57,500 bases of DNA, taken from NCBI GenBank assembly GCA_016871195.1, contig VFZN01000008.1:1-57500 (forward strand), in the 5' to 3' direction. Source of the DNA: Acidobacteriota bacterium. GTDB taxonomy: Bacteria; Acidobacteriota; Vicinamibacteria; Vicinamibacterales; UBA2999. Both the position numbers and the translations under genes were made by a program. Under the pieces are notes generated by a model, which worked only from the letters and a program-made list of their open reading frames with translations, was not told the DNA's origin and searched no databases. Position 1 is the first letter of the stretch, and each line of letters opens with the position of its first letter. Positions 32,499 to 41,900 of this stretch are shown here, piece after piece.

Positions 32499-33947
32499 GT
32501 GACCGGGGTGCTGCCTTCCCCTGCCACCGGGCGCGCGGTCCTCGTCATCGACGATGAAGAGGTGATGCGTGATGTGCTGCAGACCCTGCTGCAGCGGGCC
32601 GGCTACGCGGTGCAGGTCGCTGCCGGAGGGGCGGAGGGCCTCGCGCTGGCGCGCAGACGTCCGTTCGACGCTGTCATCGTCGACGTGATGATGTCGGACA
32701 TGGACGGCGTGCAGGTGCTCGAAGCCCTTCGGGATGACGATGAGAGCCTGCCGGTCTTGGTCATCACGGCCTATGCCTCGATGGATACGGCCGTGCGTGC
32801 CATGCAGCGTGGTGCCTTCGACTACATCACCAAGCCGTTCAAGCATGAAGACGTCCTGACAATTCTCGGCCATGCCATCGAGCAGCGGCGCCTACGCGAG
32901 GAGAACCGGCACCTCCGTGCTGAGGGAGCCCGCGGCCTCGATACGCTGTCGGCCATCGTGGGCCGCAGCCCACGGATGCTGCAGGTGTTCAAGCTCATTG
33001 CGCAGGCCGCAGCCAGCCGTGCGACCGTGTTGATTACGGGCGAGAGCGGCACAGGCAAGGAACTGGTCGCGCGGGCCCTGCACGTCAACTCGCCCCGGGC
33101 CGACCGGGCGTTTGTGCCGGTCAACTCCGGCAACCTGCCGCCCGACCTTCTCGAGTCGACGCTCTTCGGCCACGTGAAGGGCGCCTTTACCGGCGCGATC
33201 GCGCCCAAGAAGGGGCTCTTCGATCTGGCAGACCAGGGCACGATCTTTTTCGACGAGATTGGCAACATACCCGTCGAGACACAGGCCAAGCTGCTGCGCG
33301 TGATGCAGGAGCGCGAATTCATGCGCCTCGGGGGCATCGACACCATCCGCGTCGACGTGCGCATCATCGCCGCCACCAATGTGCACCTGAAGGGCGAGAT
33401 GGAGGCCGGACGATTCAGGGAAGACCTCTACTATCGCCTGCAGGTCATCACCATCGAGCTGCCTCCTCTGCGCAGCCGCACGGAAGACATCCCTCTGCTC
33501 GTCCATCACTTTCTCGACAAGTACGGCCATGAGAACGGACGCACCGGCATGTCGATCACCTCTGAGGCGATCGAACTGCTGGTGACCTATGCGTGGCCGG
33601 GCAACGTGCGCGAGCTTGAGAATGTGATCGAGCGCGCCGTGGTGCTCAGTGCCGGCCCGGTGGTGACCGCTGACCGGCTGCCAGAGTCGGTGAAAGGCGT
33701 CTCGGCCAGTCCGGCGGGACAACGGGTGGCGCTGCCGCCCGACGGCATCTCCCTTCGGGCAGAAGTGGATGCCTACGAGCGGCAGTGGATCGAAGCGGCC
33801 CTCGCGGCAGCCGATGGCGTGCAGAAGCGCGCGGCCGAACTGCTGCGCGTCAGGCCGACCACGCTCAATGAAATGCTCAAGCGTCACGGTATGCGTGACG
33901 CAGCGAGGCGTGCCGACGCGGCAGACGATCCGTCGGCTACCGGGTGA
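32499..33947 (+). CDS. Sigma-54-dependent response regulator (NtrC family)
   Basis: A 482-residue enhancer-binding protein. Receiver domain 13-128 with acidic pocket D18/D19, phospho-acceptor D62 (VIVDVMMSDMDG) and K112 (YITKPF); AAA+ domain about 150-375 with Walker A GESGTGKE (181), the sigma54-contacting GAFTGA loop (228-233) and Walker B TIFFDEI; Fis-type helix-turn-helix at the C-terminus (VQKRAAELLRVRPTTLNEMLKRHGM). It should activate sigma54 promoters when phosphorylated by the adjacent kinase. The start is GTG 32499, two bases past the kinase stop. The gene's end overlaps the converging glycosyltransferase gene by 11 bp. No clear -24/-12 promoter was found nearby, so its targets are unknown. 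Confidence 0.93.
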   Translation: MTGVLPSPATGRAVLVIDDEEVMRDVLQTLLQRAGYAVQVAAGGAEGLALARRRPFDAVIVDVMMSDMDGVQVLEALRDDDESLPVLVITAYASMDTAVRAMQRGAFDYITKPFKHEDVLTILGHAIEQRRLREENRHLRAEGARGLDTLSAIVGRSPRMLQVFKLIAQAAASRATVLITGESGTGKELVARALHVNSPRADRAFVPVNSGNLPPDLLESTLFGHVKGAFTGAIAPKKGLFDLADQGTIFFDEIGNIPVETQAKLLRVMQEREFMRLGGIDTIRVDVRIIAATNVHLKGEMEAGRFREDLYYRLQVITIELPPLRSRTEDIPLLVHHFLDKYGHENGRTGMSITSEAIELLVTYAWPGNVRELENVIERAVVLSAGPVVTADRLPESVKGVSASPAGQRVALPPDGISLRAEVDAYERQWIEAALAAADGVQKRAAELLRVRPTTLNEMLKRHGMRDAARRADAADDPSATG

Positions 33948-35175
33948 CGGCGGTCAGCAGGCGATCGTACTTCTGCATGATGACGTCCCACCGATAGTGG
34001 CGGCGGACATATTCCTTGCCGTTCCGTCCCATGCGTTCCCTCAGACGGTCGTCGCCCAGCAGCAGCCGTGTGCACTCGATGAATTCGTCGCGATCCTGAT
34101 AGAAGAGTCCCGCATTGCCCTTGAGGCAGTGGTCGACCAGGACCTCGGCCCGTGCGTTGCACAGCACCGGGGTACCGACGGCCATCGCTTCGAGGGCCAA
34201 CAGCGAAAGACTTTCGAACGGCGAGGGCACAACGACGACAGTCGCGGCTTCGAGGGCCTGCAGCCGTTCCCGCTCAGACAGCAAGCCGGCAAACCGCACC
34301 CAGGGCACCTCGGGCAGCTGCATCAGCTTGACGCCCATCAGCGCCAGCTCGGCCTCGCCGCCCTGCTCCTTGTATGACGTGAAGTACTCGATCAACTCCT
34401 CGCAGCCCTTGCCGGCGTCGATGCGGCCGCCATACAGCAGGAACTGGCCATCGAGGCGGTGACGGCGCCGGAACATGGCGCCGCGCACGCGCAGGTGCGG
34501 CGGCAGCGCCTTGTGAGCTTCCTCCTCGTCTTCGGGCTCTTCCTGCGGCAGCAGCGGTTCATCCTGCAGCAGGTCCACGCCGCAGCCCACCGTCTCCTCG
34601 GCGACCAGCCGCATCGGGAAGGTTGTCTTCAGGAAGTTCCGCTCGGAATCGGTGTTGAAGGCCACGGCACGCGCGTGACCGAACACTTCGCGGAAAATAC
34701 CCAGATGAATAGCCGGTTCGTCGTGTGCCGTAGGCACGAGGATGCTGCGTGAGGGATCGATGCCGAGGCCATGCACCGTCGGGGCATAAAGGTAGGTGAA
34801 GAAGATCACCGCGTCGTAGTCGCGATGCCGCTTCTGCAGGAACTCGAGCAGTGCCGGCGACCATGGGCCCTGCTCCTCGATCCAGCGCAGCTCGTCTGCC
34901 CGCGAATGGTCATGGTTGAAAATCCAGTCGGAGTAGCGGTTGAAGCTGTCAATGTCGCGCGTGCGCGCATTGGCAAACCGGCGGACCGTGACACCACGGA
35001 TGCGGTCGGTGCCCTCGGGATACTCGTTCTGCCATGTGATGTAGTCGCGCGCACAGGTGGTCAGTACTTCGACATCGTGGCGGACGGCAAGCCGCTCGGC
35101 AATGAGCCGGCAGTGATACTCGGACCCGCCCAGAATCTCTGCGCCGTAGCGCTGAACAACGAATGCAATTTTCAC
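33937..35175 (-). CDS. Glycosyltransferase, GT4-like (type A, second copy)
   Basis: A 412-residue retaining glycosyltransferase of GT-B fold. N-terminus MKIAFVVQRYGAEILGGSEYH contains the acceptor-side glycine loop; the C-terminal half has LLYGGRIDAGKGCEELIEYF and the donor-binding EX7E-like PSPFESLSLLALEAMAVGTPVL. It is clearly paralogous to the N-terminal 390 residues of the gene at 37476-39281 (both share ITTCASDYITW-like and VPTA-like segments). It contains an acidic insertion (EEPEDEEEAHK, about residue 215-225) not in the paralogue. Its GTG overlaps the preceding gene's stop (GTGA). Sugar donor and acceptor are unknown; last gene of the surface-glycan operon. Confidence 0.88.
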   Translation of the reverse strand: MKIAFVVQRYGAEILGGSEYHCRLIAERLAVRHDVEVLTTCARDYITWQNEYPEGTDRIRGVTVRRFANARTRDIDSFNRYSDWIFNHDHSRADELRWIEEQGPWSPALLEFLQKRHRDYDAVIFFTYLYAPTVHGLGIDPSRSILVPTAHDEPAIHLGIFREVFGHARAVAFNTDSERNFLKTTFPMRLVAEETVGCGVDLLQDEPLLPQEEPEDEEEAHKALPPHLRVRGAMFRRRHRLDGQFLLYGGRIDAGKGCEELIEYFTSYKEQGGEAELALMGVKLMQLPEVPWVRFAGLLSERERLQALEAATVVVVPSPFESLSLLALEAMAVGTPVLCNARAEVLVDHCLKGNAGLFYQDRDEFIECTRLLLGDDRLRERMGRNGKEYVRRHYRWDVIMQKYDRLLTAVTR

Positions 35176-36263
35176 AGAGTTGACTCCGTGGCCCGTTGCG
35201 GACCCATCGTGGCCAGCAACTGCTGCAGCTCGCGCCTGATCCGCGCGTCGCCGAAATCGAGCAGCCGTTGCCGTTGCCGTGCAATCACGCGCCGCCGCAG
35301 GTCGCCGTTGTAGACCAGCTCACCCAGCAGTTCGGCGGCATATTCCATGTCCTTGGGTTCGAACAGCACGCCCGCGCCTCCGAGGGTATCGGGCACGGCT
35401 GTCGATGCGTAGGCCATCACCGGTACGTCGGCGGCCATGGCCTCGAGCAGTGGCACGCAAAAGCCTTCGTGCTCCGACAGCGACAGGTAGACATCCGCTG
35501 CCCGATAGTACGCCGCGAGGTCGTCATCGTCGACCGGGCCGGTGAACAGGAACCGTTCCGGCGGCATGTCGAACTCCTTGATGAGGGCGCGCACCATGTT
35601 GTAGTAGCGCGGCATGCCATCCGTGCGGCCGACGAAGATGAAGCGATAGTGCAGGTCGACATACCGCTTGTAGGTCTCGGCCAGTCGAATGTGGTCTTCA
35701 ATCTTCTTATTCGGCGCGATGCGTCCCACAAACAGAAAATTGTGCAGCCCGTCATTCAGGAGCACATCGAGTGCTGGCCGCGGCGATGCGTGCGTGATGC
35801 GGGTGGTGTTGATGGCGATGGGGAAGATCCCGGTGTCCCGGAAGCCCATATCCTCGAGTTCGCAGCGGTTGAATTCGGAATCGCCCAGAGCCAGTTCGAC
35901 ATGTCCGGCCAGCGAGCGCACGTCATCCCGGCTGAGCAGCGAGAGGCGGAAGACCTCGGCATCGAACGGTGCAAAAAAATGGGCGGGCGTGACATTGTGA
36001 TACTGCAGCACGCGACCACCGGGCAGCGCGGCAAACGCCCGCGTCATGGGCGAGACCAGGGCAAAGTGAAAGATCGTCACGTCGCCTGCGTGTGCCGCAG
36101 GTTCGCTGAACGGGCGAACGTCGCCACGCAGGTCATCGTCAATCGTCAGGGCGAACAGGTCGGCTTGGTGCCCCATGGTACGCAGCAGGTCACGTACGCG
36201 CCTGGCCGAGTCGCCGATGGCATCGCCCCGATGCGCCGCCGGCACCCACTGATTGACGATCAT
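35172..36263 (-). CDS. Glycosyltransferase, GT4-like (type B, second copy)
   Basis: A 363-residue GT-B glycosyltransferase. Visible are the N-terminal acceptor domain with LQYHNVTPAHFFAPFD, LALGDSEFNRCELEDMGF, and the donor domain with FLFVGRIAPNKKIEDHIRLAETY and LSEHEGFCVPLLEAMAADVPVMAY (catalytic EGFCVPLLE). It is a close relative of the adjacent gene at 36277. ATG 36263 (MIVNQW) was chosen because family-like sequence starts there; the frame runs 55 codons further upstream into the neighbouring gene but that part is arginine-rich shadow sequence. A 13-bp gap separates it from the upstream gene and a four-base overlap from the downstream one. Confidence 0.87.
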   Translation of the reverse strand: MIVNQWVPAAHRGDAIGDSARRVRDLLRTMGHQADLFALTIDDDLRGDVRPFSEPAAHAGDVTIFHFALVSPMTRAFAALPGGRVLQYHNVTPAHFFAPFDAEVFRLSLLSRDDVRSLAGHVELALGDSEFNRCELEDMGFRDTGIFPIAINTTRITHASPRPALDVLLNDGLHNFLFVGRIAPNKKIEDHIRLAETYKRYVDLHYRFIFVGRTDGMPRYYNMVRALIKEFDMPPERFLFTGPVDDDDLAAYYRAADVYLSLSEHEGFCVPLLEAMAADVPVMAYASTAVPDTLGGAGVLFEPKDMEYAAELLGELVYNGDLRRRVIARQRQRLLDFGDARIRRELQQLLATMGPQRATESTL

Positions 36264-36276
36264 GCGGCCCTGCCTG

Positions 36277-37479
36277 TCACCGGGGTGCCTTCTTCGGCAG
36301 CGCGAGATAGGCGGCCGGTCGATAGGGACGCAGTTCCTGGAGATGCACGGCCTCGTCGACCTGTTCCCAGAAATCAAACGCCACCGGGGGATGCGGACGC
36401 CGTGGGGCGTGGCGGATCTCGTCGACAAACCGCAGCAGCAGGCCGCCGAAGTCGCGCGCCATCAGCCGGGCCAGCGCGGCGTCCTGCGCGTCCACGATGC
36501 GTGAGGCCAGCGCATCGTTGGAGGCGATCTGGTCAATCAGGGCGGCCACCCGCATGGGATCCTTGTCGGTGTACAGCACACCCGCGCCGTCCATGGTGGA
36601 GGGAATCGCGGTCGCGGCATAGGCCAGCACGGGCACGCCCATGTGAAAGGACTCGACCAGCGGCACGCAGAATCCCTCGTGCTCACTGGCGCACAGAAAG
36701 ACGTCGGCCAGTTCGTAGTACGCCACCAGTTCGGCGTTGCTGACATGCCCGAGAAAGTGCACGTCGCAGACGCCGAGGGACGCCGTCATCGACAGCAGCA
36801 TCGACAGATAGCGCTCGAATCCTGAATGCGCGCCCACCAGCAGCAGGCGTGACCGCGGGTTGAAGTACGTCTTGTAGGCGTGAAAAAAGCGGATGACGTC
36901 CTCGATCTTCTTGTTGGGAATCACCCGGCCCACGAACATCACGTTCACCCAGCCATCGTCGAAGCTGCTGGCCTGCATGACGTCGGGGGCACTGTCGAGA
37001 TGCGAGAAGTCGGGCACCACCGGCAGCACATCCGTACGGGGAAACCCCAGCGCCTCGAGTTCCTGCCGGTTGTAGTCGGAATCGCCGAGTCCGAGGTCGC
37101 ACCGCCGGGCATACAGCCCGAGCTCGCGTCGACCCAGGTAGCAGAGTTCGACCAGCGGGGGATGCACGTCGATGAAGTACTCGGGCGGCGTGATGTTGTG
37201 GTAAATCAGCGCCATCCGATCAGGCAGGGCATACGCGATGCGCGATGCCTTGGACCCCAGCGAGAAATGGTGCAGCAGGATGTGGTCCGGATGGCTGGCA
37301 TCGGGCAGGTCGCGATAGTCGACGGTCAGCGATTCAAGCCTGGAGTCGGCGGTCTCGCAGAAAATTTCCGACTCGTAGCCCGCGGCCTGCAGCACGCGCC
37401 GGATGCCCAGCACCTCATTGCCGATCGCATCGCCATAGCCCAGCGTCGCCAGTACCTGATGCACTGCCGGTCGGCTCAT
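36277..37479 (-). CDS. Glycosyltransferase, GT4-like (type B, first copy)
   Basis: A 400-residue GT-B glycosyltransferase paralogous to the gene at 35172 (shared YHNITPPEYF, LGDSDYNRQELEALGFPRTDVLPVV, NVMFVGRVIPNKKIEDVIRFFHAYK and ASEHEGFCVPLVESFHMGVPVLAYAATAIP). The C-terminal 45 residues (DFGGLLLRFVDEIRHAPRRPHP onward) are absent from its paralogue. The ATG overlaps the stop of the upstream gene (ATGA), so it is translationally coupled. Likely adds a sugar to a lipid-linked or surface glycan; specificity cannot be read. Confidence 0.87.
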   Translation of the reverse strand: MSRPAVHQVLATLGYGDAIGNEVLGIRRVLQAAGYESEIFCETADSRLESLTVDYRDLPDASHPDHILLHHFSLGSKASRIAYALPDRMALIYHNITPPEYFIDVHPPLVELCYLGRRELGLYARRCDLGLGDSDYNRQELEALGFPRTDVLPVVPDFSHLDSAPDVMQASSFDDGWVNVMFVGRVIPNKKIEDVIRFFHAYKTYFNPRSRLLLVGAHSGFERYLSMLLSMTASLGVCDVHFLGHVSNAELVAYYELADVFLCASEHEGFCVPLVESFHMGVPVLAYAATAIPSTMDGAGVLYTDKDPMRVAALIDQIASNDALASRIVDAQDAALARLMARDFGGLLLRFVDEIRHAPRRPHPPVAFDFWEQVDEAVHLQELRPYRPAAYLALPKKAPR

Positions 37480-39281
37480 GCGGGCGAACCCTCCGTGCGG
37501 CCCGGTCGCCCCTTTGGCCTGCGTCGGCGTCTCGCCGTCGGACGTCGCTCTGGGCTGGCCTGGTCTCCGCCGTCACCGCGCGGCTGGGGCGCTGGTGCTG
37601 ATGTCGGGGAACCCGATGGAGTCGAGGTCTCTTCGAGGTTCGGCTCTGGCGTGCTGGAGCTGCCGGTGCCGGTGCGTGCGTCACGAGGCGGGCGCGAACC
37701 ACGCGCGCCCTGACCCGCTGGCCTGGCCTGCCGGTCATGTCGGCGAGACCGATCGTGCCCGCGTCCTCGATGCTCCTGACGCGGGTCACGCTCGCGTGAC
37801 CGGCGGTCCTGGGACTGTTCGGTGCGACCCTCGGTGGTGGCGCGCGCGTCACCCTCGGCGCGTCCCGTGGGCGCGGCGACGGGTGATGCTGCCGCCGCAG
37901 GCGGCGTCGGTGAGGTGCGTGCCGGTGCCTCGGCAGGCGGTGCGGGTGCCTGCGTGCGGCCTGCCGACGGACGCACGCGCTCCGTCGCAGGCTCGCTGAT
38001 ATCCGTGGCAGCGCCGCGGGGCTGTGCATCGACGATGCGATCGGCCGGTGGCAGCGTGCGACGTCGACGGCTGAACCAGCCGGGCAGCGGTTCCATGCCG
38101 CGACCTGCGGGTGCCTGCGACAGTCGCTCGAGCATATCGAGATACTTCCGCTCGATCACCGGCCAGCTGTAGTGCGCCTGGAAATAGCGCTGGCCATTGG
38201 CGCCGAGGGATGCGGCCAGTGCCGGGTTCATGTCGAGAGCGCGCAGGGTTTCGAGGAACTCGCCGTAGCCCTGGTAGTAGAGGCCGGCATTGCTCCGCCG
38301 GCACTGCCCCTGCAGCACATCGCAGGCCGCGTTGGCCAGCACGGGGCGACCGAGGGCCCAGGCTTCGAGGGCCACCATCGACAGGCTCTCGAAGTACGAC
38401 GGCATCACCAGCAGGTCTGCGGCAGCCATGGCATCGAACTTGTCCTGGTCAGACACAAAGCCCAGATGATGAATCCGCGGATGGGACGGAACGGGAATGA
38501 CGGGCGTCCCGATCAGTACAAGGTGCAGGCCGTCGAGCATGGCCGTCGAGTAGCGAACAAAGAAATCGAACAGTTCGCGGCAGCCCTTGTTTTCGTCAAT
38601 GCGGCCCACATAGATGGCGAACCGATCGTGCATTCCGAACTTCTGGCGAAAGCGGGGGGGGCGAGGACGCTCGGGAATCTCTGAGCCGATGCCGACCACG
38701 ACCCCGGGGACCGCGTGGTTGCCGGTGATGCCCTGAATCAGTGCCCGTTCCTCGTACGAGTTGTACATCAGGGCCCGCACACCCCTGAACAGCGGACCGA
38801 AGATGCTGAGGCCCAGAGCACCGTCGCGCTCGGCGGTCGGCACCAGAATCGCCTTGTGTGCCACGGCACGCGCGCCGTGATAGGCGTGGTAGTACCGTGC
38901 ACTGAAGAAAATGAAGAAGTCGTACCCGGCGTCGTGCGCCCGCAGATAATCGACCAGCGCAGGGCTGGTCGGGCCTTCGGCCTCCAGCCACGCCAGTTCG
39001 TCATTCACCGAGTGTGGACGCGTGAACACCCGGGCCGACCAGTCGCCGAACTCATCGGGCGTCCGCTCCCGCGACACCGGAAACCGACGCACCGTGATGC
39101 CGTGGATCGACTCGGTGCCGGACGCGCGCTCATTCCGCCACGTGATGTAGTCGGAGGCGCACGTCGTGATCACCTCGACACTGACGTGGCGCGCGAGATG
39201 CTCGGCCACATACCGGGCATGCAGTTCGGCGCCGCCGTTGATGTCGGCGCCGTATCGCTGAACAACAACCGCGATCTTCAC
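37476..39281 (-). CDS. Glycosyltransferase (type A, first copy) with long disordered basic tail
   Basis: A 601-residue protein. Residues 1-390 are a GT4-like glycosyltransferase (MKIAVVVQRYGADINGGAELH; AIYVGRIDENKGCRELFDFF; donor-site PSYFESLSMVALEAWALGRPVL) paralogous to the gene at 33937. From about residue 393 to the end there is no fold: more than 200 residues rich in Pro, Ala, Arg, Gly, Glu and Ser, including RRSRERDPRQEHRGRGHDRSRRHDRQ-like low-complexity sequence and RRRRRPKGRPGR near the C-terminus. Such tails are normal in RNA-binding proteins such as RNase E but odd on a glycosyltransferase. Starts by a GTGA overlap with the coiled-coil gene. Confidence 0.88.
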   Translation of the reverse strand: MKIAVVVQRYGADINGGAELHARYVAEHLARHVSVEVITTCASDYITWRNERASGTESIHGITVRRFPVSRERTPDEFGDWSARVFTRPHSVNDELAWLEAEGPTSPALVDYLRAHDAGYDFFIFFSARYYHAYHGARAVAHKAILVPTAERDGALGLSIFGPLFRGVRALMYNSYEERALIQGITGNHAVPGVVVGIGSEIPERPRPPRFRQKFGMHDRFAIYVGRIDENKGCRELFDFFVRYSTAMLDGLHLVLIGTPVIPVPSHPRIHHLGFVSDQDKFDAMAAADLLVMPSYFESLSMVALEAWALGRPVLANAACDVLQGQCRRSNAGLYYQGYGEFLETLRALDMNPALAASLGANGQRYFQAHYSWPVIERKYLDMLERLSQAPAGRGMEPLPGWFSRRRRTLPPADRIVDAQPRGAATDISEPATERVRPSAGRTQAPAPPAEAPARTSPTPPAAAASPVAAPTGRAEGDARATTEGRTEQSQDRRSRERDPRQEHRGRGHDRSRRHDRQARPAGQGARGSRPPRDARTGTGSSSTPEPNLEETSTPSGSPTSAPAPQPRGDGGDQASPERRPTARRRRRPKGRPGRTEGSPA

Positions 39282-40183
39282 TGCGCGTCTGGTGTGGACG
39301 AATTGTCGTCCGTGTCTGGCCCCTCGTCGTCATACGAGTCGCCGTCGGCATCAGGCAGGGCCTCGGTGCCGGTCACGTCGCCGTCCTGTCCGGGCACGCC
39401 GCCAACGCCCTCACGATTCCCGCGCCGCCCGCGGCGGCGACGGCGGCGACGGCGGCCGTCGCCCTCCCCACGACCCGCCGCGTCAGCACCGTCACCCGTC
39501 GTGCCATTCCCGGCCTCATGGGCAGGCAGCTCGGCAGGGCCGCCGGCCGCCTCGGGACGCGTCTCGCGGCGCTCGCGGGTCCGCTGCACCTCGGGCCGGT
39601 ACTGGACGACGCCCTCGAGGGCTCGCACGCGACGTTCACTGAAGTCAAGACGGCTCGACAGCGACTCGACGCGCATCCGCAGGTTCTTCACCTCGATGCC
39701 GGTGCGCGTAGTCTCGAGCACGAGGTTGTGCAGCACTTCGTAATACAGCACATTCCACTCGCTGCGCTCGAGCCGGCGCGTCGCATCGCGCTTCAGCATG
39801 TCGACGTTGAACTGCGCCTGGGCGTGCAGCACCTGGTTGAGGGTGTTGGGATTGAAGAACAGCTTGAGCACAGGTAGCAGTAGCCGGCGGATCAGGCGCA
39901 GCAGGCCGCGGTGTGACGAAAACAGCGTTTTGTCGTCGAAGGTGTACGGAGGCTCGAACGCCGCCGGATCAACGGCCACGGCCGGGCGGCTTCGGCGAAA
40001 CTGCTCGAGCAGGTCCGAGCGCAGGTGCTTCGGATCGAGAAATTTTTCGAGCCGCACACTAGCCAGCTCGCGCACTTGTTCTTCGGTGTAGTCGACGCCA
40101 CGCTTCTCGGCCAGGCGGCCGCGAATCTGCGTCATGATTTGCTCGACGTCGACCGATTCGGATCGGATGTTGAACTCAGACAT
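39278..40183 (-). CDS. Coiled-coil protein with Arg-rich disordered C-terminus, glycan locus
   Basis: A 301-residue protein I cannot assign to a named family. Residues 1-60 are helical (VDVEQIMTQIRGRLAEKRG); 93-112 is a short amphipathic/hydrophobic stretch (GLLRLIRRLLLPVLKLFF) that may lie on the membrane; 120-195 is a likely coiled coil (heptad-like LRMRVESLSSRLDFSERRVRALE). The last 110 residues are low complexity: an Arg run at 244-254 followed by an acidic end (DADGDSYDDEGPDTDDNSS). Similar short helical proteins occur in polysaccharide clusters, where they may organise glycosyltransferases. It is the first gene of a five-gene minus-strand operon; AAGGAG lies 4-5 nt before its ATG. Confidence 0.7.
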   Translation of the reverse strand: MSEFNIRSESVDVEQIMTQIRGRLAEKRGVDYTEEQVRELASVRLEKFLDPKHLRSDLLEQFRRSRPAVAVDPAAFEPPYTFDDKTLFSSHRGLLRLIRRLLLPVLKLFFNPNTLNQVLHAQAQFNVDMLKRDATRRLERSEWNVLYYEVLHNLVLETTRTGIEVKNLRMRVESLSSRLDFSERRVRALEGVVQYRPEVQRTRERRETRPEAAGGPAELPAHEAGNGTTGDGADAAGRGEGDGRRRRRRRRGRRGNREGVGGVPGQDGDVTGTEALPDADGDSYDDEGPDTDDNSSTPDAQ

Positions 40184-40372: not shown

Positions 40373-41248
40373 CTACCACCCGAACGGGCGATAGATGACC
40401 GCGACTACTGTGAGGCCCCACAGACCGACGCATGACAGCAGCGGCCGATCGGTCACCAGCATCTCCGAGGGGTTCCCACCGCCGTCCTTCCGATGGACGA
40501 TGTAGAGGTACCTGAAGAGGCCGTAGATGGGAAACGGGACCGTCAGCACCAGCCAGTGGGTGCCGAAACGAGCCGTGGTTTCCGGGCTCAGGCAGTAGAT
40601 GATGTAGGCCACCAGCGTTGCTGCGGCGACTACCGCGATCATCTGATCGAGCAGATACGGGTCGTACTCCTCCAAAATCCGTCGATGGCCGGCTGCCCCC
40701 GCCGCCAGCAGCGTCAGTTCGTGGCGACGCTTGCTGAGACCGAGGAACAGGGCCAGAAGAATGGTGCAGATCACCAGCCAGTCACTGATGGGCACCCCGA
40801 TGACCAGACCGCCGGCAATCGCGCGCAGCACAAAGCCGAACGCAATGGCCATGACGTCGAGTATCACCAGGTGCTTGAGCACACGGGTGTAGGCCGCCTG
40901 TAGCACCAGGTAGGCGGCCGCGACCAGGCCGAAGCCGGTCTGCAGCCAGAAGGCCAGTGAGAGGCCCAGGGCCGTCAGCGCCAGGGCCCAGGCCACTGCC
41001 GTCGGCGCAGACACATGCCCGGCCGCAATCGGGCGATACCGCTTGACCGGATGCTGACGATCCGACTCGCGGTCGGAGACGTCGTTGAGCAGATAGACGG
41101 CGCCGGACAGTCCGCAGAAAATGGCAAAGGCCGCCAGTGCCTGCAGCACGGCGGCCGTATCGAACAGGCGACGGGCAAACAGCAGCGCCGCAAAGACCAG
41201 CAGGTTCTTGGTCCACTGCTCCGGCCTGAGCGAATGCAGCACGCTCAC
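40373..41248 (-). CDS. Decaprenyl-phosphate phosphoribosyltransferase-like UbiA prenyltransferase
   Basis: A 291-residue polytopic membrane enzyme of the UbiA superfamily, closest by eye to 5-phosphoribosyl-1-pyrophosphate:decaprenyl-phosphate phosphoribosyltransferase (mycobacterial Rv3806c). Marks are SLRPEQWTKNLLVFAALLF at the N-terminus, the metal/diphosphate motif YLLNDVSDRESDRQHPVKRYRP with NDxxDxxxD, LVILDVMAIAFGFVLRAIAGG, and LFLGLSKRRHELTLL. That enzyme makes the lipid-linked pentose precursor for arabinan or ribofuranose-containing glycans. It sits next to, and on the same strand as, five glycan-locus genes, which fits. The 2'-epimerase genes needed for arabinose are not in the window. 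Start is GTG 41248 with GGGAG upstream. Confidence 0.85.
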   Translation of the reverse strand: MSVLHSLRPEQWTKNLLVFAALLFARRLFDTAAVLQALAAFAIFCGLSGAVYLLNDVSDRESDRQHPVKRYRPIAAGHVSAPTAVAWALALTALGLSLAFWLQTGFGLVAAAYLVLQAAYTRVLKHLVILDVMAIAFGFVLRAIAGGLVIGVPISDWLVICTILLALFLGLSKRRHELTLLAAGAAGHRRILEEYDPYLLDQMIAVVAAATLVAYIIYCLSPETTARFGTHWLVLTVPFPIYGLFRYLYIVHRKDGGGNPSEMLVTDRPLLSCVGLWGLTVVAVIYRPFGW

Positions 41249-41269
41249 TCCCGAAGACCCGATCCGGTG

Positions 41270-41611
41270 CTAGGCCCCAAAGCTCGCCACGGCATCTGCT
41301 TCCGTGTCGAAAGTCTCGAACACCGTCAGCAGCTTCGTGATCGACAGCAGGTCTTCAATCCGCTTTGTCAGGTTCACCAGCTTGAGGCTGCCCCCCTGAC
41401 GCTTAACCGTGGTGTAGGTGCGGACGATTTCGCCCAAGCCGGCACTGTCGAGATACTCGACGCCCGCCAGGTTGAGCAGCAGGTGCGTGTGGCCGGAGGC
41501 CAGCACGCGGGCAATCGTGTCGCGCAGGTGCTCGTCGCCGTCGCCAAGGGTGATCTTCCCCTTGAGGTCGAGAATCGCGACGCCGTTCACCGTGCGTTCG
41601 GTGATCTCCAT
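41270..41611 (-). CDS. STAS-domain anti-sigma-factor antagonist
   Basis: A 113-residue single STAS domain of the SpoIIAA/RsbV type (MEITERTVNGVAILDLKGKITL; LLLNLAGVEYLDSAGLGEIV). The conserved phosphorylatable serine is S56 in YLDSAG, so it could be switched by a partner anti-sigma kinase and phosphatase, none of which is encoded nearby. The ATG at 41611 was preferred over one three codons upstream (41620), because AAGGA is 9 nt from the former and directly abuts the latter. It lies between the UbiA gene (21 bp downstream) and rpsU (upstream), after a hairpin. Confidence 0.85.
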   Translation of the reverse strand: MEITERTVNGVAILDLKGKITLGDGDEHLRDTIARVLASGHTHLLLNLAGVEYLDSAGLGEIVRTYTTVKRQGGSLKLVNLTKRIEDLLSITKLLTVFETFDTEADAVASFGA

Positions 41612-41642
41612 GGCAGACATTCCTTACAGTCAGAAAGTAACA

Positions 41643-41689
41643 GCGACCGCGCCCGGGGCTCACAGAAAGGAGCCGCAGGCAGCGGTCGC
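41643..41689 (-). terminator. Nested hairpin downstream of rpsU
   Basis: GCGACCGC (41643-41650) pairs with GCGGTCGC (41682-41689), and inside it GGCTC (41657-41661) pairs with GAGCC (41670-41674). In the minus-strand reading the structure is followed by TGTTACTTTCTG, moderately T-rich. It stands between rpsU and the STAS gene and may stop or attenuate rpsU transcription. Confidence 0.55.
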
Positions 41690-41702
41690 ATGATATCACG
41701 GG

Positions 41703-41900
41703 CTAATCGGTGTCCCGGCGCATCTTCTTCCGGCTGCGCTTGCGGGCCAGCGCCTGCTTGGCGCGGCGCTTGTCGCCCGGCTTCAGGTAGAAGGAGTGCT
41801 TCTTGATGTCCTTGATGATGTCTTCCTGCTGCACCTTGCGCTTGAAGCGGCGCAACGCACTTTCGATCGACTCACCTTCCTGAATCTTGACTTCGGCCAT
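41703..41900 (-). CDS. rpsU: 30S ribosomal protein S21
   Basis: A 65-residue ribosomal protein of the small subunit. MAEVKIQEGESIESALRRFKRKVQQEDIIKDIKK is typical S21, and the rest (KPGDKRRAKQALARKRSRKKMRR) is the basic RNA-binding tail. The ATG at 41900 is supported by AAAGGGGG 7 nt upstream; a longer open frame to 41993 is not family-like. It is divergent from purD across 121 bp and is followed by a nested hairpin. Confidence 0.95.
   Translation of the reverse strand: MAEVKIQEGESIESALRRFKRKVQQEDIIKDIKKHSFYLKPGDKRRAKQALARKRSRKKMRRDTD

Follow-up and report, generated by a model that had tools for sequence, protein, structure and literature searches.

A glycosyltransferase with a disordered Arg-rich tail and its neighbour: an order-specific latch and a conserved run of arginines

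Why should a glycosyltransferase end in some two hundred residues of disordered Arg/Pro/Gly-rich sequence? We asked this of a gene in a stretch of 57,500 nucleotides (nt) from an Acidobacteriota bacterium of the order Vicinamibacterales (assembly GCA_016871195.1, contig VFZN01000008.1). This whole stretch is hereafter called the window, and positions refer to its forward strand. The open reading frame at 37476-39281 on the (-) strand, where all the cluster genes listed here lie, encodes a GT4-type glycosyltransferase of 601 amino acids, and the gene upstream of it encodes a protein that we label CC. A first-pass annotation had noticed the disordered Arg-rich tail, and it was largely right: 211 amino acids follow residue 390, and the motifs it named, RRSRERD, RGRG and RRRRRPKGRPGR, are all inside them. 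The real interest of the locus, however, is not the length of this tail. It is a short conserved segment of the enzyme, which we call the latch, together with a run of arginines in CC, and the partner protein matters through this Arg run of its own and through its tracking of the enzyme's latch.

The latch, with the consensus MEPLPGWxARRRRTLPPAxxVVAxLPxGP or a near variant, directly follows the fold in 48 of 48 orthologues from the order, 47 of them found by regular expression and one (G021, with an LGW variant) by eye. The remaining four of the 52 order rows surveyed were left out of the count: in G001, G025 and G028 the tailed enzyme has no orthologue, and in G279 the bases at that place are masked. 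No latch was found in 26 homologues outside the order, nor in the enzymes at 17 paralogue loci, where one regular-expression match (G020p) was judged spurious by eye. P400, G401, W402, R405, R406, A413, P421 and G423 are conserved at 90% or more in 34 sequences. A profile of the latch alone, run against 99 genomes from the phylum, matched in 25 at E ≤0.01. Six of these matched at ≤8e-12, all in the order, and the matches in the other 19 (4e-5 to 0.01, with partial coverage) were taken as chance without reading them.

Does the latch belong to the fold or to the tail? The fold had been placed as ending near residue 390, and this was probably too early, since residues 391-423 are conserved in every order orthologue examined. 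The AlphaFold2 model of residues 1-430 was built from six sequences from the window and loci L031 and L032, among them the window enzyme and its tailless paralogue, and has a mean predicted local distance difference test score (pLDDT) of 87.4. In it the pLDDT is 71 for residues 391-400, 67 for 401-410, 86 for 411-420 and 51 for 421-430, with a helix at 413-418. From the value for residues 411-420, the structured part of the enzyme probably extends beyond residue 390. The catalytic part before it has a Pfam glycosyltransferase group 1 domain at residues 212-349, a nucleotide-sugar domain of the Glycos_transf_1 type (PF00534, 49.4 bits, cut-off 26.4; PF13692, 53.3 bits, cut-off 27) and a GT-B fold whose best match is BshA (3mbo; Z 33.8, root-mean-square deviation 2.8 over 334 residues); BshA, MshA and PimA were matched over about residues 1-391. 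E298 and E306 are invariant in 34 aligned sequences and form an E-x7-E motif, the motif of retaining GT4 enzymes. A search of solved chains with the latch profile found none by sequence (best E 0.72), and among the fold matches listed none goes beyond residue 395, which is no proof that the latch is a new fold.

The second element lies in CC. This protein has no Pfam or NCBIfam match, and a comparison with solved structures gave nothing usable (best E 0.06). A catalytic terminator domain (methyltransferase or kinase) was not found in it, as 28 members gave only weak unrelated matches with E of at least 0.0038. Its N-terminal 200 residues are conserved, and most of the remainder is unalignable apart from the Arg block. 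In 42 of 42 order members there is a run of 6-11 basic residues, placed 40-156 residues ahead of the C-terminus; the 42nd, from G028, has the run and no enzyme orthologue, hence 42 proteins and 41 pairs. Across 28 aligned rows R246-R250 and R253 do not vary, partly with the help of the aligner, which lines runs up, and the run-length count is independent of alignment. The longest basic run in 15 CC proteins from outside the order is 4, so that none of the 15 has the Arg run. A CC profile matched 38 of 149 genomes of the phylum. All 12 order matches extend to profile position 280-301, whereas most of those in the other 26 genomes, which are outside the order, end by position 222, before the Arg block; an exception, G169, reaches 270 by reading through three stops. 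Elsewhere in the genome Arg runs gave 17 pattern matches against 9 in the control, and the matches other than CC looked by eye, from their length and composition, like non-gene frames. The CC Arg run is better conserved than the long tail of the enzyme. The stretch after the run has a net negative charge in 41 of 41, and in this respect the annotation was correct that an acidic end is encoded next door. Residues 92-109 have a hydrophobic moment of 0.79, the highest within residues 1-217, and CC is, as far as modelling goes, a probable amphipathic/coiled-coil protein.

Two observations on CC stand apart. In G035 (L055), whose CC was not counted, the frame continues far past the usual end into the next gene, through a frameshift or an assembly error. 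The Arg-block region of the CC profile also occurs on its own at G079:C47:9828-9971 and G116:C187:11530-11844, in frames of other proteins of 529 and 690 residues.

Are the two elements gained together? The latch and the CC Arg run co-occur in 41 of 41 order pairs, and neither is present in 15 outside pairs. The genomes of the order offer a further comparison. In their paralogous CC-enzyme pairs neither latch nor Arg run was seen in any of the 15 readable pairs (17 loci, with G037 and G006 lacking a readable partner), and the stop codon of the partner is at the same place in all 15, which implies the same overlap of the genes. The paralogous enzyme of G021 has a different Arg-containing tail of 43 residues. 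A second, unlinked CC-glycosyltransferase pair with overlapping genes, and with no Arg run or latch, was seen in relatives at loci L070-L073, L087-L092, L094, L095 and L097-L099.

CC and the enzyme are adjacent in the order loci where both are visible, and in the window the CC gene overlaps the start of the enzyme gene. CC stands beside the same enzyme in other classes too. Of the 26 loci fetched from outside the order, 13 have the succession CC, enzyme, GT2, GT3 and a further glycosyltransferase, and three of these (G045, G064 and G248) also show UbiA. There most CC proteins stop soon after the helical part and the enzymes have 3-23 residues past the core. G248, of the same class and outside the order, has the whole locus, with ribosomal protein S21 and STAS; latch and Arg run are both absent from it. 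A sister clade of 15 has gone another way: its enzyme is without the long arm, and CC begins with an RGRRG-type Arg/Gly-rich extension, found by pattern in 10 of the 11 CC proteins seen and as a variant, by eye, in G011. An extension on CC instead of the enzyme is expected if positive charge belongs to the complex and not to one chain. In the loci of this clade that were read, no GT2 or GT3 was found next to the enzyme.

What remains of the tail is the arm that follows the latch, 178 residues in the window enzyme. A long arm (a tail of at least 85 residues) is present in 15 of 48 order orthologues and absent from 33, four of which have intermediate arms (G026, G038, G035 and G233, the last terminating in RRKRRRRRPEG). 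Conservation in orthologues, which had been suggested as a check, holds for the latch and fails for the long arm, and the lack of a long arm in most orthologues goes part of the way towards what the annotation had named as refuting it. The paralogue at 33937 was correctly described as tailless. On the tree 11 long arms are in one clade around the genus of the window and four in another clade of five; this state needs three changes, at least two forced by well-supported branches, either as separate gains or as a gain with losses. The densest 20-residue Arg window lies no more than 16 residues from the C-terminus in 11 of the 15 long tails, the others being G003, G005, G024 and G148.

The reading frame of the arm remains open in relatives. 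A check of the frame by guanine-cytosine (GC) content per codon position had been proposed; it was run and was not decisive (GC3 falls from 0.805 in the core to 0.689 in the arm, with GC1 and GC2 about 0.78), and we used the substitution pattern instead. In the closest pair, G003/G004, the arm aligns over 300 nt without gaps at a nucleotide identity of 0.72. Differences at codon positions one, two and three are 0.26, 0.18 and 0.40 in the arm and 0.04, 0.03 and 0.21 in the core, with position three the most frequent. This ungapped alignment and third-position excess indicate that the arm is coding but weakly constrained. The pattern is clear in this one of eight pairs only: in the other seven the arm is too diverged, the alignments run out of phase (same phase 0.40-0.80) with gaps that are not multiples of three, the third-position excess is small or absent and the codon pattern is unclear. 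Even within one genus (G005, G197, G240 and G310) nucleotide identity is 0.54-0.56 in the arm against 0.82-0.85 in the core.

The composition of the arm was compared with shuffles of its own DNA, which preserve its GC content (0.75 in the window arm, against 0.64 in the core); 14 of the 15 long arms were used, as the latch was not located in G189. The Arg fraction of the window arm is 0.190 against 0.173 in shuffles, and 262 of 1000 shuffles were at least as high. Its hydrophobic fraction is 0.023 against 0.104, and none of 1000 was as low. Arg content is within the shuffle range in 11 of 14 arms (at least 60 of 1000 shuffles at least as high), and hydrophobic residues are depleted in 11 of 14 (no more than 21 of 1000 as low), the exceptions being G294, G148 and G264. 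Arg enrichment had been considered as a sign of selection and was rejected, as base composition explains most of it.

What could such parts on two neighbouring proteins be for? Conservation, gene overlap, joint presence or absence and disorder-like composition are what we observed directly; we infer a complex, its membrane location and the ligand of the Arg blocks. Our best reading, held tentatively and at a little less than an even chance, is a membrane-peripheral enzyme-scaffold complex with lineage-specific electrostatic arms. The enzyme would be the GT4-type glycosyltransferase of a conserved cytoplasmic glycan-assembly locus, consisting of a UbiA gene resembling decaprenyl-phosphate phosphoribosyltransferase (DPPR synthase), CC, the enzyme and then at least two glycosyltransferases. 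It would work in a complex with CC, which we propose because the genes overlap and co-occur. CC would sit on the inner membrane via its amphipathic helix and hold the enzyme by its helical part. The order-specific latch would pack on the enzyme fold, probably forming a docking surface that faces CC or the membrane, and the order-specific C-terminus of CC would be disordered, with a run of about eight arginines and an acidic end. The long Arg/Pro/Gly arm would be a lineage-specific addition that increases this low-specificity positive charge, whose simplest targets would be anionic lipid head groups or a polyprenyl-phosphate-linked substrate. Polycations attract anionic lipids non-specifically, and it is on this general chemistry that attraction of anionic lipids or lipid phosphate by the Arg blocks is proposed. 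A bolder version, which we regard as doubtful, is that the order gained matched parts: the enzyme its latch, and the scaffold a poly-Arg run that hardly varies within a disordered tail that otherwise runs free. Together they would gather the pathway at the inner membrane or into a condensate, with further Arg arms added to either partner by lineage and selection keeping the charge of the complex, not its sequence.

Several results weigh against the enzyme-scaffold complex. Three of the six sequences behind the latch model are without a latch. The CC model, built from the window and L031 only, has a mean pLDDT of 42, with the helix 140-192 at about 50, which leaves helix and coil tentative. The latch and the Arg run may each date to one shared stem branch, so that their joint pattern would be close to a single event and the joint occurrence weaker than the counts suggest. 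Nor are basic ends on the two proteins strictly an order feature: among outside relatives, G060, G050 and G064 have CC proteins with basic ends that lack the run, and in G059 and G044 the enzyme terminates in a short aromatic-basic stretch. GT2 and GT3 are absent from several order genomes, and the complex need not serve one fixed pathway. The Arg content of the arm largely follows base composition. Lastly, the parts of one paper that we drew on (PMC6821194) describe an enrichment of arginine in the low-complexity regions of RNA-binding proteins from prokaryotes, which links Arg-rich regions of this kind to RNA binding.

Could the long arm be nearly neutral? A stop codon lost after the latch in a GC-rich genome would let a disordered extension grow, with selection only for solubility and for a scarcity of hydrophobic residues. 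The absence of the long arm in 33 of 48 orthologues, an Arg fraction that exceeds shuffles little if at all in 11 of 14 arms, fast divergence, indels that are not multiples of three and unreliable alignment even inside a genus all fit this view. It has to contend with the ungapped third-position excess of G003/G004, the depletion of hydrophobic residues in 11 of 14 arms and the Arg-dense window that recurs close to the end of 11 of 15, and it leaves the latch and the CC Arg run unexplained; we consider it unlikely, if the most serious of the alternatives. The same partial source on RNA-binding proteins lends something to another possibility, in which RNA or ribosomes are the target of the Arg blocks and, for instance, CC and the enzyme are brought together where they are translated. 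Upstream there is an S21 gene, and the genes of CC and the enzyme overlap. The R8-GRRG of CC resembles Arg/Gly RNA-binding motifs. However, the locus of G248, which has neither Arg run nor latch, likewise begins with S21, and the adjacent downstream genes are glycosyltransferases. The first-pass annotation had pointed to RNA-degradosome proteins, a link that found no support: the neighbours are mostly glycan genes, and the one RNase E/G match in the genome is without an Arg tail, its frame ending ...FDVMSIGG after the catalytic part. Binding of RNA or ribosomes thus seems improbable to us.

The same annotation had also suggested pairing of the basic tail with the acidic end of the neighbour. 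Opposite charges on adjacent overlapping genes, and an acidic end that is negative in 41 of 41, make this attractive, but the two charges are uncorrelated (Spearman -0.008, p 0.96, 41 pairs) and pairs that lack the long arm have a similarly negative end (median -11 in these 27, against -12 in the 14 with the arm; Mann-Whitney p 0.18), and we hold it to be very improbable. Scarcely better is the chance that the ligand of the arms is an acidic glycan or a pool of nucleotide sugars, so that substrate would be concentrated locally or the growing chain kept in place; gene context and, by inference, polycation chemistry speak for it. A tethering role, as first suggested, is still the best guess, and its RNA-degradosome and acidic-end versions fared worse.

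With the enzyme-scaffold complex as the preferred reading, an apparent oddity of one protein becomes a testable module of two. That 42 of 42 members keep a basic run where the sequence around it cannot be aligned speaks for selection on a short charged element within a disordered tail of a bacterial protein. For the role of such tails in glycan assembly, the same genomes provide a ready control in their paralogous pairs, which lack the Arg run.

The features of the locus are collected in the table. The genes around the tailed enzyme are mostly glycan genes, and ahead of the cluster, at 40373-41897, the window has the DPPR-synthase-like UbiA gene, a STAS protein and S21, an order kept in most relatives where that stretch was seen.

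Table. Features of the enzyme, of CC and of the neighbouring genes (window positions)
Feature	Position	Strand	Basis or remark
GT-B (GT4) catalytic part, residues 1-390	38112..39281	(-)	Pfam Glyco_trans_1_4 and Glycos_transf_1 above cut-off; fold matches
Latch, conserved C-terminal segment, residues 391-423	38013..38111	(-)	orthologue comparison, pLDDT
Disordered R/P/A/G-rich arm, fast-evolving, residues 424-601 and stop codon	37476..38012	(-)	length survey, composition, substitution pattern
Dense Arg block near enzyme C-terminus, residues 579-595, RRPTARRRRRPKGRPGR	37497..37547	(-)	within the densest 20-residue Arg window of the tail
Partner protein CC, 301 aa	39278..40183	(-)	no Pfam/NCBIfam family; 4-nt overlap with enzyme gene
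CC amphipathic stretch, residues 92-109, RGLLRLIRRLLLPVLKLF	39857..39910	(-)	hydrophobic moment; conserved in most alignment rows
CC long helix, possible coiled coil, residues 140-192	39608..39766	(-)	low-confidence model; conserved
CC Arg block, residues 244-255, RRRRRRRRGRRG	39419..39454	(-)	alignment and run-length count
CC acidic C-terminal end, residues 256-301	39281..39418	(-)	net charge
CC with Arg/Gly-rich N-terminal extension	L044, L052, L054, L057, L059, L060, L062-L064, L066
UbiA-family gene, decaprenyl-phosphate phosphoribosyltransferase (DPPR-synthase)-like, same cluster	40373..41248	(-)	NF008977, 304.8 bits against cut-off 234
Glycosyltransferase GT2	36277..37479	(-)	overlaps tailed enzyme by 4 nt; in many, not all, order loci
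Glycosyltransferase GT3	35172..36428	(-)	true start probably downstream of the start of the open reading frame
Tailless paralogous glycosyltransferase (gene label GT4)	33937..35175	(-)	412 aa, ends with its fold

How does this pair compare with known systems? No description of a CC-enzyme module was found among the literature matches listed, which were open-licence papers. RNase E-type degradosome tails are disordered, Arg/Pro/Gly-rich and fast-evolving, and the window arm is like them in all three respects, but it sits on a GT4-type glycosyltransferase and not on RNase E/G or another RNA enzyme. The enzyme resembles the GT4 enzymes of GT-B fold (BshA, MshA, PimA, PimB' and HepE) in its fold, over about residues 1-391, and in its Pfam models; it differs from them in what follows, as the fold matches listed all end by model residue 395. 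The portions of two papers that we used (PMC11231755, PMC3482155) describe, for O-polysaccharide assembly, a coiled-coil protein with a membrane amphipathic helix that brings in the polymerising glycosyltransferase and serves as a scaffold on the membrane. As far as those portions describe WbdA-WbdD and the related coiled-coil scaffolds of ABC-transporter-dependent O-polysaccharides, CC is similar to them in its possible coil, its amphipathic stretch and the place of its gene beside the enzyme. Unlike WbdD, CC has no kinase, methyltransferase or other known domain and its helix is short, and its Arg block and acidic end are without a counterpart in the same partial descriptions. We do not class CC as a WbdD, because it has no known catalytic domain, but by analogy it may work like one.

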